From Ypsolopha sequella (lineage: Eukaryota; Arthropoda; Insecta; Lepidoptera; Ypsolophidae), in contig OW204009.1 of NCBI GenBank assembly GCA_934047225.1, forward strand, positions 14,698,501-14,762,500: 64,000 nucleotides of DNA, read 5' to 3'. A model generated the notes under the pieces. That model did not search any database, was not told the origin of the DNA, and saw only the letters and a list, made by a program, of their open reading frames with translations. Positions 10,640 to 34,600 of this stretch are shown piece by piece. The position numbers were made by a program, and so were the translations under genes. The number at the start of each line of letters is the position of its first letter. Position 1 is the stretch's first letter.

Positions 10640-13600
10640 GTAAGTCTGCAACTCCTCTCGGTATACCATGGTGGTTCTTATACCGTTTGCGTAAAGTTGA
10701 AAATCGTACAAGATTTAATTACCTTCCTCTTCTGAATACTACAGATAGGACTGCCACCTTTCAAAAAGTGTTGGCCCGGAGATTTGGAAAAGTCGCAATT
10801 TTAAAATAAATATATTTTATTACAATACAATTTTTTGTTTCATCCATCATCATTCGAAGCAGTGGGCAAAAGAGTACAACATACTTGTAGATGAAGATGA
10901 AGTTGTACCACAGAACAGATTCACAACATGCCCTTCCATCCATCCATCAGCCTAGTTCATCCACTGCTGGACATAAGCCTTTCCAGGACTTTGCCACTCC
11001 CGGTGGTCATCTTAGAAGAATTGCCCATACTCACACACGCTGGGCAGGCGGGTTGGTGAGCGCGGTGCCGGAACCCTCGCACCAGTGACGCCGCTGCCCG
11101 TCACCAGTCTGTTCCATTTAAGGCCCGGCTAATAGGGGATGGATATACCACCATACATCGGTCCCAGGCATGGTGGGCCTCCTGGTTTTTTGCCTGTGAG
11201 CTGTCCTCTTACTCCCCCTCGAATTACTTCGAGGGGGTGATTTTTTGTTTATTTATATTTATTTATTAGCCAATTAATTTCTAGTTTTCTTAAATAACAA
11301 AGTATAGTATTACAAAATTTAAAGTATTAGAAAAAAAAAATGTATTCTAGGATAAGTGTATCAAGCTTGAAAAAACTAGAGGTCGTTCTGACCAAGGCCT
11401 CCCTCATAGTAATGTTCAGTTACCTTAAAAACTAGAGGTCGTTCTGACCAGGGCCTCCCTCATATAATGTTCAGTTACCTTAAAAACTAGAGGTCGTTCT
11501 GACCAGGGCCTCCCTCATATAATGTTCAGTTACCTTAAAAACTAGAGGTCGTTCTGACCAGGGCCTCCCTCATAGTAATGTTCAGTTACCTTAAAAACTA
11601 GAGGTCGTTCTGACCAGGGCCTCCCTCATATAATGTTCAGTTACCTTAAAAACTAGAGGTCGTTCTGACCAGGGCCTCCCTCATAGTAAAGTTCAGTTAC
11701 CTTAAAAACTAGAGGTCGTTTTGACCAGGGCCTCCGTCATAGTAATGTTCAGTTACCTTAAAAACTAGAGGTCGTTCTGACCAGAGCCTCCCTCATAGGA
11801 ATGTTCAGTTACCTTAAAAATATCTAGATGGGACTTTTCTATTTCTTTCAATTTCTCTGTATATTATGTACAGATAAAATAGCGTTGCTATTATAGCGGA
11901 CCTGCTTGATTTTTAAATAACATTTTTTGTTAGTTTGTATTTGGTGAAAGGAAAGTATTTGCACTGGACCTTGTTACTTTTTTATTTTGTTGACCGTACA
12001 TGTCGGCAATGTCATTTACATTCATACTAGAGATGTACCGACTATTCGGGAAAGCCGACTATCCGGCCATATTTGTAGTCGGCGATTAGACAACTAGTCG
12101 GCCCACTACTTTATTCATAATAGGGTGATTGAATCCTTTACTTAACGTTTTTAATTTTAATTTTTTTTTACTTATCTTTCCCTGTTCATGATTTTAATTG
12201 TAGTTTGTAAAATAATCGTGGAATAGGAACTCTAAATCAAGAAGACCAACAATTTAATAATTAAAAAAAACCTTGACGCGAGTTTCTACAACATTGAATA
12301 AAGAACACAAGTCAGTAATTTTTTTTACATACCCGAACTTTTTCATATACCAGAAATCCACCGAAAGCAATGATCGTCTTAGCCGTCTAGTCGGCCTTTT
12401 TTCAACCGAATAGTCGGCGAAAGTCATACATTCATTAAAAATGATGTAAGAATGTTTTTTTTTTGTTTTTTAGGCCGTGTTCCGTCAATGAGGTTTGCTA
12501 TTGCTATTAAAAGATCCATTTACCATGGAACTCTAAAAAAACCATGCGAATATTTATGTTTCACATAACCAATACAGGCAGTAGTCATGAAATGTCCTAT
12601 AAAATATTGATTGTGAAGGCTTTCGTATCAATAACAAAATGGAGGCTGTACATAACCGTATTTTAAACAATGATACACATAAACGATGACGATTAACAAT
12701 TTAAAAATATTTCTTCTATTTTGTAAGTATAGTGACAAAAAAAAAACGTACATACATACATACACTCACGCCTGTCCCCTACAGGGGTAGGCAGAGACTA
12801 CAGATTTCCCCTTCTTTCGCCTCTTCCACATCCATTAATCCAGTCATACAAGCTCTTCTATTCCTGGTACTTTTGACATTACTCTTCTTCAATACCTCGC
12901 CGATTTGGTCAGCATACGTCCTTCCAGGGCAGCCTGATCGAGATCTACCTTCGACTTGCGCACCACACATTTCTTTCCTTACTCTACATTCATTCATCCT
13001 CTACATGTCCAAACCATCGAAGCATTCCTTTTTCTATTCTAGTCACTTCATCTTCTTTCAGGCCGCAATGATCCCGTATGTCGGCATTTTTCACTCTATC
13101 ATTCAATGTTAAACAACCCATACTTCTTAAGGAATGCATTTCCACTGCATTCTTATAATTTTGATCTATTTCTTCCCATACCCAACATTCATTACCACAC
13201 ATAAATGTAAGATCCAACATATGAACCGCTAATCGTGCCTTTACAGTCACAATTTGGCTACCCATAAAGGAGTGCAGGGCTTCGTTTACTTTATTTCCCG
13301 CATCCACTCTTCTTTCAATTTCACCGTCACACTTTCCATCGCGCGTAAATAGACAACCCAGATAGACAAACGCGTTAACCTGTTTTACTTTATTTTATTT
13401 TTTATTTTATTTAGTTTATTCAGGAAATTAACAGCGATATAATATACTCTAAACAACATTTCAAAACTTAAACTAAGGCCAATAACAAATTTCCCCAACT
13501 GTAAAAAATAATAATCAAAACTTAACTAATTCGTTAGTCCGAATTTAGACTACTCTTATATTTAAACATTTAAAGAAAATAAAGCAACTTAACCAAGTAC

Positions 13601-31600: not shown

Positions 31601-34600
31601 AACCAATTCAGACCATGACGATGCGTCGGAAATTAACGATTATAACAATATCAACAAAAACAACGAACTAAAAGAAAATATCGAACCAGTATCACCATCA
31701 AACAAAAGATTTTCCACTGTGACAAGAAGAACTACCAGAGATATATTAGATAGTGATTATCAAGAGATATTTAAAAAATCTCGAGACGACTACATAGCGT
31801 CTAGTGCTGAAAAGTTAATCAAAGATTTGTTTGATGATAAAAATATAGAAATTCGAATGAATATTCAGGCGGAAGAAACGGGGATTCTTAAAGAAGACCC
31901 GAGAATATCAAGCAATGAGATTGGTTTAGTACGAAGGGTGTTTTCAATACCCAATACTGCTAAGCCCCAATATAGACTTGAATTTGCTAACGTTGGCACG
32001 ACTCTTAAAAAGTGAAGTTTATGTTTAGTTATGATTCAGAAAAATACTTCGGCTTTTTTAGACTTAAGTCTGTGAATTAAATGTTGTTTTACCGTCTGTT
32101 TTTCTCTGCTTTATTAAACGAGCGAGCGAAGTTCTCTGAGTCTACTTGAACAATCCGGCGTTTGTATGTATGTATGACATATATGTATGTTTGTTTGTCC
32201 GACGATAACTCGAATATTATTAATCGGAACGTCATGAAATTTGGTAGGCGAGTGAATGAGACAAAATAGTAGTAGATTGTTATACGAGTGCATAAAACGA
32301 GCCTTTTTATTTAGCCGCTTTTGCCTATAGTTCGAGGTTATATGGCTCGTTTGTAGCCGAGTTCAACACTGCTTTTCACTTCGAATGCGAGGATTATTTC
32401 ATCATCACTGGATGATATATTTAACTTTCAGTAATGTCTGTCTGACGATAACTCTCGGCATCTATTTGACTCATGTTTGAACTTAATAGTAGTTTATGCT
32501 ACAAGGGCGCAAAGGAATAAATTCATTGCTCTTACGCCCGTGTATCATACTACGTTTTTCAATGCATTGTGTGAGGAAATAAAACAAATATAATCTTGTG
32601 AACATTAAATTATAATTGGCTCAAAAGGACAGTATCCAGAGCTGTTAAACAGTGGGAAAAAAATATATAATATTTATGGTGCACAGGAAAGGCTGCAGGT
32701 TAGCCAACAATGAGCGGTTTTCCAGACTGAACTTGATCAAGCTTTCAGAAGTAAACACAGATGGCGTTACCCTGCTTTCAAGTGTCAAAAAGCAAAGATT
32801 ATTTTTTAATCTGTGGGCAGCAAGAAAAAAAATGTCAATTCAATTGTTAAATCCAACAATTTTGTTTTCTATCTATATTACTTATGTTAATAGCTTGGTA
32901 TTTCATTCAACTTTCAACATGGTCAGCCCATGCGTTGTAGCTAATTGTAAAAATATAGGAACACACAGTTTAACTAATTGCGGAAAGAACAATGGATCTT
33001 AGCAATAATACATTTGAGGCATGGATTGACCATAAAAAAGAAAGAAGCAAAGAAGAAGTGTCAAAATCAAAAGAATCCAGTGTTGCCAGGAAGACTTTTT
33101 TGACACTTTTAGTAAAGGCTGCGCCATCTATTGTGTCGTTCGGTACTACTTTTTATTTTTTAATTTGACTTTGAAAACCCCTCATTGTAAATAAATTAAA
33201 AAAAAGAAAAATAATAAAGCCCTAGGGCAAAATAATCGACTTTCTGTTCGGTTTTGATGCATAAAAAGTGGATCTTTACGAGCACTTGCATTGAAAAAAA
33301 TATTTTTGTCTCATTTACTCGCCTACCAAATTTCATAATGTTCCGATACTTAGAAGTAAAACACTCATGGTCGGCTACATTTTCGTTTTTATTGCACCCT
33401 ACAATGGACTCTTCAGTTTTCTCGATAGTAACTTGAGTGTTTTGGGCATATACAGTGTATGAATGAAAATATACAAGGTGACTTTTTGATCATCGTCCAA
33501 ATTCATACTGGTGGCTTGGTAAGTGATCAGTATCATGCATCAATAACAATTTTGGTGAAATTTGTAAAATGAAATTTCGACTCCCCATTGTGACTCACTC
33601 GGGACTGGAACTGAATTTATATGGGAAGCCGAAATATCATTTTACGAATTTCACAAAAATTGTTACTGATCCAAGATACTGATCACTTATCAAGCCTCCA
33701 TTGTGAATTTGGACGATGCTCAAAAAGTCACCTTGTATAGAGTGACGAAAAAAAATATATATAAGGTCTTTCATTTTAAATGGAAAGTAATTAAGGAGGT
33801 GATTCAGTATCGTTAATACATCACATTCCACTGAAAAGTACTTTGCGCGAACTTTTTCTTCACTTGCCCATACAAACTGAGTCAGCTGATCGGACCACAT
33901 TGTACCGAGAAGTAAAAAAAAGTTCGCGCAAAAAAAAGTGCTTTGTAGTAGAATGTGATGTATTAACGATACTGAATCACCTCCTAAATTACGTTCCATT
34001 TAAATTGAAAGACCTTATATATAATACTAGCTGACCCGGCGAACTTCGTTCCGCCTAACAGTCTAATAATATCGTGTTAACTTTAGTTAAACTTAATTTA
34101 GGATTTCATTAAGGTAATAATATTAATACAACTTTTTTGCAAAAACAGAAATGTTTTATTGTTTGCCATTGCGAAAGAAGAATGGCAGGGACCCATGTAG
34201 TTTCAGTACCGTTGTAGGCTTAGTGTAGGGTATTGAATATATGCAGAAATAATAGTTCTTGGAATAACTAAGCGATTTTAAAACTTGGGGTTTAGATGTT
34301 ATTTAATGATATCAGAACGCTAGATAAATAGGTTTCTTTTATATGCGTAGTTTTGTCAACAGATGGCACCACATGCTGTTTGCATTCGTAAAATTAATTA
34401 ATTTATTTATTGTTATTCGATAACTTATCCGATATTTTATTACTTATTCTGCTATTCGGAGCGGACAAGAATACACTAAAAAAGAGATAACTAACAACGA
34501 TCCAGCCGATCTTGAGTTATAAGTGGTGTAACTAACACGACTTTGTTTTATATATTTAGATTGCGCAAATGGAAGGTAAAGCTCGACCAGGCTGCCCTAT

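Follow-up and report, generated by a model that had tools for sequence, protein, structure and literature searches.

The moth silk gene H-Fib (FibH) is built from two exons, the first of which encodes 10 residues of the signal peptide and is separated by a 340-bp intron from a very large second exon (PMC9684489). The same layout is described for the pseudofibroins (Pfib) of caddisflies, of which Pfib2A and Pfib2B are adjacent and share 54.6% amino acid identity; another caddisfly silk protein, PC-Muc2, is rich in lysine, glutamate and asparagine (K 12.7, E 12.2, N 8.3), with a grand average of hydropathy (GRAVY) of -1.248 (PMC9432349). In general, introns in phase 1 are over-represented near the sites where signal peptides are cleaved (PMC1626468), and nested genes, which make up about 6% of fly genes, frequently run opposite in direction to their host (PMC3786989). 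Here we describe three two-exon genes, g1, g2 and g3, from the moth Ypsolopha sequella, which lie on one strand within a single intron of what looks like an M8 peptidase gene of the LMLN type. The window analysed is a stretch of 64,000 bp (GenBank assembly GCA_934047225.1, contig OW204009.1, forward-strand positions 14,698,501 to 14,762,500), and all features below are given in window coordinates on its forward strand. To judge from their sequence, the three genes form a real, coherent family of probably secreted proteins that is probably lineage-restricted and sits in a repeat-rich intron, with a gene layout that is itself ordinary.

Three tandem genes with a shared splice frame

The first exon of g1 contributes 37 coding bases (12686..12722) and its second exon, with the stop codon, occupies 14539..15596, giving a protein of 364 amino acids. 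In g2 and g3 the first exon contributes 31 coding bases each (22615..22645 and 30125..30155), and the second exons, again with the stop, run from 24113..26229 and 30943..32015 to give 715 and 367 amino acids. Joining the exons at the junctions proposed in a preliminary description of the locus produced no internal stop in any of the three frames. All three genes have a GTAAGT donor, the acceptors read TTTCAG in g1 and g2 and TTTTAG in g3, and the introns, of 1816, 1467 and 787 bp respectively, are in phase 1 and split a cysteine codon as T|GT. The chance of a stop-free second exon, given its own base composition, is 3.0e-13 for g1, 3.4e-28 for g2 and 9.0e-13 for g3, so these exons are not chance open reading frames (ORFs). 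The preliminary description had proposed three same-strand paralogues in one intron, each with an exon 1 of 31 to 37 coding bases and a phase-1 intron through a cysteine codon, and every part of this proposal holds in all three genes, with open frames of 364, 715 and 367 codons.

The sequence upstream of each gene agrees with this model. A TATA box had been claimed for all three, and TATAAA is indeed found 67-88 bp 5' of the ATG: at 12598..12603 in g1 (88 bp), at 22532..22537 in g2 (83 bp, with a second at 22546, 69 bp from the ATG) and at 30058..30063 in g3 (67 bp). The box and the next 40 bp or so are conserved between g1 and g2 and between g2 and g3, neither similarity being equalled in 1000 block-shuffles, and weakly so between g1 and g3 (block-shuffles, p=0.043). 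At the other end of the intron, DNA similarity sets in 6-7 bp 5' of the predicted acceptors for g1/g2 (14533/24107) and g2/g3 (24106/30936); for g1/g3 its onset is 20 bp inside exon 2 (14559/30963). The conserved TATA and leader block, together with an onset of similarity so near the acceptors in g1/g2 and g2/g3, supports the splice model independently. At the level of sequence, g1, g2 and g3 are thus real paralogues, with genes, splice frame and paralogy demonstrated; their transcription, secretion, tissue and function we infer.

Other ATG codons precede the chosen ones in what we take to be the leaders of g1 (12639 and 12670, both opening short upstream ORFs) and g3 (30089 and 30100). The ATG chosen for g1 is not the first after its TATA box, and these upstream codons make its start the least certain of the three. 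As read from the sequence, the g1 leader holds an upstream ORF of 16 codons (12639-12689) whose TGA stop overlaps the chosen start ATG, a layout able to lower translation. Downstream, neither AATAAA nor ATTAAA occurs within 600 bp 3' of the g1 stop (15597-16200), and some 100 bp past that stop the base composition becomes GC-rich; from these two features, an insertion may have displaced the 3' end of g1.

Conserved ends and a fast-changing charged body

The conserved parts of the three proteins are both ends, and the middle is divergent. Each begins with a hydrophobic N-terminus that is split by the intron and that we take, on hydropathy only, to be a signal peptide; it contains the sole cysteine of the protein (residue 13 in g1, 11 in g2 and g3), leaving the predicted mature parts Cys-free. 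There follows the segment ISA[NS]IEDVKKLA with about 20 further residues, conserved throughout the family. The body is rich in K, D, E and N and is predicted from charge and hydropathy to be disordered, with order predicted only towards both ends. Across the family the isoelectric point (pI) is 9.3-9.6 and GRAVY -0.99 to -1.07, with A at 3.2-4.6%, G at 1.4-3.2% and S at 6.4-8.1%; in g2, K reaches 14.4, N 9.8 and E 8.8. At the C-terminus, the segment PLYK....GVTLPSGRY...L.QL.Q.ALH is found in g1 and g2 only. The hydrophobic N-termini, IEDVKKLA motif and lysine-rich, predicted-disordered bodies named in the preliminary description are therefore present in all three proteins and the TLPSGRY ending in two of them, as it stated, and its view that the micro-exons complete the frames into a coherent secreted-protein family stands at the level of sequence.

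Two of the proteins depart from this plan in their own ways. In g2 a 315-bp unit is duplicated in tandem and in frame (24251..24883, two copies, 84% matches), and this unit resembles one stretch each of g1 and g3, by a profile built from the same three proteins. The g3 protein ends in GTTLKK, without the PSGRY tail with which g1 and g2 continue, and the DNA past its stop may hold a relic of that tail, to judge from its match to the g1 tail (p=0.0075; against the g2 tail, p=0.63). Since g3 otherwise keeps an open frame and a constrained N-terminus, it is as likely a shortened active gene as a pseudogene.

This constraint was estimated by NG86 over an N-terminal block of 57-58 aligned codons, beginning at codon 12. 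Omega is 0.18 for g1/g3 (95% bootstrap 0.07-0.39) and 0.19 for g2/g3 (0.09-0.44). Of 500 bootstraps, 439 were usable for g1/g3, 458 for g2/g3 and 499 for g1/g2, dS being saturated in the rest. With dS at 0.7-1.2 in the block, synonymous divergence is high, which implies that the duplicates are old and makes the selection values rough. Given the higher values obtained elsewhere (below), these estimates indicate that purifying selection acts on the N-terminal block in two of the three pairs and that the remainder is fast-changing.

No further member of the family was found in the window or in the collections searched. Profiles of the N-terminal segment, the repeated module and the C-terminal segment, searched against six frames of the window, returned no fourth copy and nothing better than E 1 among the matches listed; these profiles were built from the three proteins, which score by construction. 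In a protein collection of uncertain insect content, g1 had no match at E<=0.001 among 2247 candidates, a profile of all three proteins none at E<=10 among the 7999 candidates scored, and g2 exon 2 none at E<=1 among 7998. The collection did not return even the proteins encoded in the window, and its negatives say little about insects. Among viruses (IMG/VR), pattern matches numbered 24 for g3 and 399 for the family profile, with 0 confirmed in either, and 66 pattern matches in prokaryotic contigs (GTDB) likewise yielded 0; given their content, these two sets too are of little weight for insects. Pfam returned four matches, all below the curated cut-off (best E 0.053); as Pfam covers all life, g1-g3 are not a curated Pfam family. 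Among PDB sequences the best E was 0.39, with no fibroin among 3 matches for g3 (E up to 1) or 5 for the profile (E up to 5). A full-text literature search with the family sequence returned no paper, and among the other papers listed no title or abstract start matched the family. As a sequence family, g1-g3 may be undescribed.

A possible silk-like design and its alternatives

That no family with this architecture had been described was also part of the preliminary description, and here it was mistaken, because the published moth H-Fib (PMC9684489) and caddisfly Pfib (PMC9432349) genes share the two-exon layout with a short first exon. The likeness to FibH is close in gene design: two exons, of which the first is very short (37, 31 and 31 coding bases here) and encodes roughly 10 residues of the signal peptide, a single intron and a long exon 2, as that gene is described in PMC9684489. 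The proteins differ, in that g1-g3 are far shorter, basic and rich in K, D, E and N, have no mature cysteine, at the C-terminus or elsewhere, and matched no fibroin among PDB sequences. The pseudofibroins share with our genes both the layout and the occurrence of adjacent paralogues, and differ, as far as the description in PMC9432349 allows a comparison, in being Ala/Ser-rich. The same source describes PC-Muc2, which resembles g2 in its K/E/N-rich composition and its GRAVY and differs in having 19 exons and a mass of 173 kDa, again compared by description only. Sericins and other moth silk-coating proteins, according to PMC9684489, are hydrophilic, repetitive, fast-evolving and duplicated, as g1-g3 are; the latter do not qualify as sericins, which are marked by Ser-rich repeats and, in sericin 1, by CXCY near the C-terminus, since serine is at only 6.4-8.1%, the charge is basic and there is no CXCY motif.

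The reading that we put first, if tentatively and with rather less than even confidence, is that g1-g3 are separately promoted tandem paralogues for secreted, lysine-rich, largely disordered proteins made by a gland and serving a structural or coating role. It draws on the open frames, the shared splice frame, the TATA block, the low N-terminal omega, the conserved ends, the g2 duplication, the Cys-free basic body, the FibH/Pfib layout and the PC-Muc2-like composition. A secretory gland would make these proteins in bulk from their TATA promoters. Each would start with a signal peptide and a conserved N-terminal segment of helical structure, continue through a charged body that changes fast and finish in a better-ordered C-terminal segment; the conserved ends would serve in storage or assembly, with the cationic body acting as a soluble matrix or glue, tolerant of repeat change. 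Such a design logic can be likened to that of silk fibroins and silk-coating proteins.

Several results weigh against a role of this kind. A fibroin-type layout is not proof of silk, and the repeats rich in Ser-Ala, Ser-Gly or Gly-Ala that mark FibH and the pseudofibroins are absent. Among the Yponomeuta silk proteins tabulated in PMC9684489, 21 of the 22 rows covered here list 3.8-6.7 in a column that we take as pI, and g1-g3 are basic. The protein collection, Pfam, PDB, IMG/VR and GTDB supplied no relatives that could lend a function. Selection is less clear outside the two constrained comparisons: N-terminal omega for g1/g2 is 0.51 (0.24-0.96), C-terminal pN/pS is 0.62, 0.63 and 0.70, and comparing the repeat copies of g2 yields 0.67 (0.37-1.30), a value compatible with neutrality. 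A structure model of 351 residues was poor, with a mean pLDDT of 46.5, a pTM of 0.16 and 238 of the 351 residues below 50. Within it, 10-residue blocks over residues 21-50 of the exon-2 peptide had a mean pLDDT of 66-71, and the segment around ISA[NS]IEDVKKLA is predicted with modest confidence to be helical.

Other explanations must be set beside a structural or coating function. Lineage-restricted, fast-evolving tandem duplicates with a secretion signal and strong divergence outside the N-terminal block are also what reproductive proteins of the seminal fluid or accessory glands, made for the ejaculate, would look like, and PMC11290247 describes a moth orphan gene that acts in male reproduction. 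The N-terminal constraint in our genes is purifying, not positive, and Pfam gives no similarity to a named family, so we regard a reproductive role as unlikely. The basic, secreted proteins might instead belong to the haemolymph, cuticle, gut or immune system. Many genes for secreted effectors have a TATA promoter and a signal peptide, as these do, and a basic charge would suit the binding of acidic polymers or microbes, but nothing specific points this way and Pfam shows no known domain; we think this improbable to a like degree. 

The lysine-rich body invites a further possibility, that g1-g3 are prohormone-like precursors cleaved at Lys-Arg sites into secreted peptides. KR occurs 11 times in g1 against 3.5 expected (0/1000 shuffles), 9 against 5.0 in g2 (p=0.049) and 7 against 3.0 in g3 (p=0.02), and RK is not enriched (KR 27 vs RK 10, p=0.008); this enrichment of KR, not RK, is why the precursor reading keeps some weight. 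However, many dibasic sites are expected in K-rich proteins, KK too is frequent in g3 (p=0.015), the g2 repeat makes its sites non-independent, and the sequences, read by eye, show neither a short peptide that recurs nor a Gly preceding a dibasic site, which together leave cleaved precursors quite unlikely. Finally, the intron is crowded with repeats, among them a 1.9-kb inverted one that separates g1 from g2, and g1-g3 might be ORFs of mobile elements or their domesticated remains. Yet no transposon domain reaches the Pfam cut-off, the matches listed for the window include only three copies, and transposons do not usually have a micro-exon, promoter and splice frame in common, making this origin very improbable.

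If the structural or coating reading is taken further, g1-g3 would represent a family of moth gland proteins not described before, cationic, K/E/N-rich and Cys-free, in which a fibroin-type layout and conserved-ends design occur without fibroin sequence, which grew in tandem within a same-strand protease intron and in which one copy lost its C-terminal tail. In this full form we consider the proposal doubtful.

The host intron and what the family may mean

The host intron spans 26,718 bp (10640..37357), has GT..AG borders and is in phase 0 on both sides; the whole coding sequence of each of g1, g2 and g3 lies inside it. The exons on its 5' (10528..10639) and 3' (37358..37493, end read from sequence) sides resemble, we presume, fly invadolysin, and on the basis of phase 0, order and this assumed resemblance they look like parts of an M8 peptidase gene; neither matches Pfam alone. 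Four exon pieces joined by eye match PF01457 (Peptidase_M8) at E=2.9e-13 over residues 75-164 of 167, a range that takes in both downstream pieces but just the final few residues of the second piece. A host stretch at 44647..44784, open to the next stop, carries the M8 zinc site HExxH. The nesting in an LMLN-type gene put forward in the preliminary description is supported. Third-position GC is 0.68, 0.76 and 0.85 in host exons, as against 0.27, 0.23 and 0.30 in the nested genes. The fly gene 2mit similarly has two exons and a complete coding sequence within an intron of its host tim2, as described in PMC3786989; our locus differs in that three paralogues stand in tandem and share the strand of their host.

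The intron and its surroundings are rich in repeats. Eight tandem copies of a 56-bp unit lie 5' of g1 (11371-11820), and 3' of g2 (27378-27609) the trinucleotide TCA is repeated about 77 times, forming an open frame for poly-Ile. Between g1 and g2 (17773-21782), two inverted arms of 1,892 bp, 99.6% identical and separated by a 226-bp spacer, carry ORFs like those of mobile elements; a search of Pfam with a 147-aa piece from this repeat gave nothing at E up to 0.1. Downstream, at 57180-58826, about 9 copies of a 138-bp unit (46 codons) begin at 57556, preceded and overlapped by 3 copies of a 188-bp form. The encoded peptide presumably resembles part of the LMLN protease, and the array may be an amplified exon piece of the host gene or an assembly artefact.

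Should g1-g3 prove to serve as silk, glue or coating, the known components of moth silk would gain a class that is cationic and disordered. They would also show how such genes escape gene finders, since the long exon alone lacks the start and most of the signal peptide. If they are instead reproductive proteins or peptide precursors, they would illustrate, on a small scale, how a lineage-restricted gene family can expand within the intron of a host.

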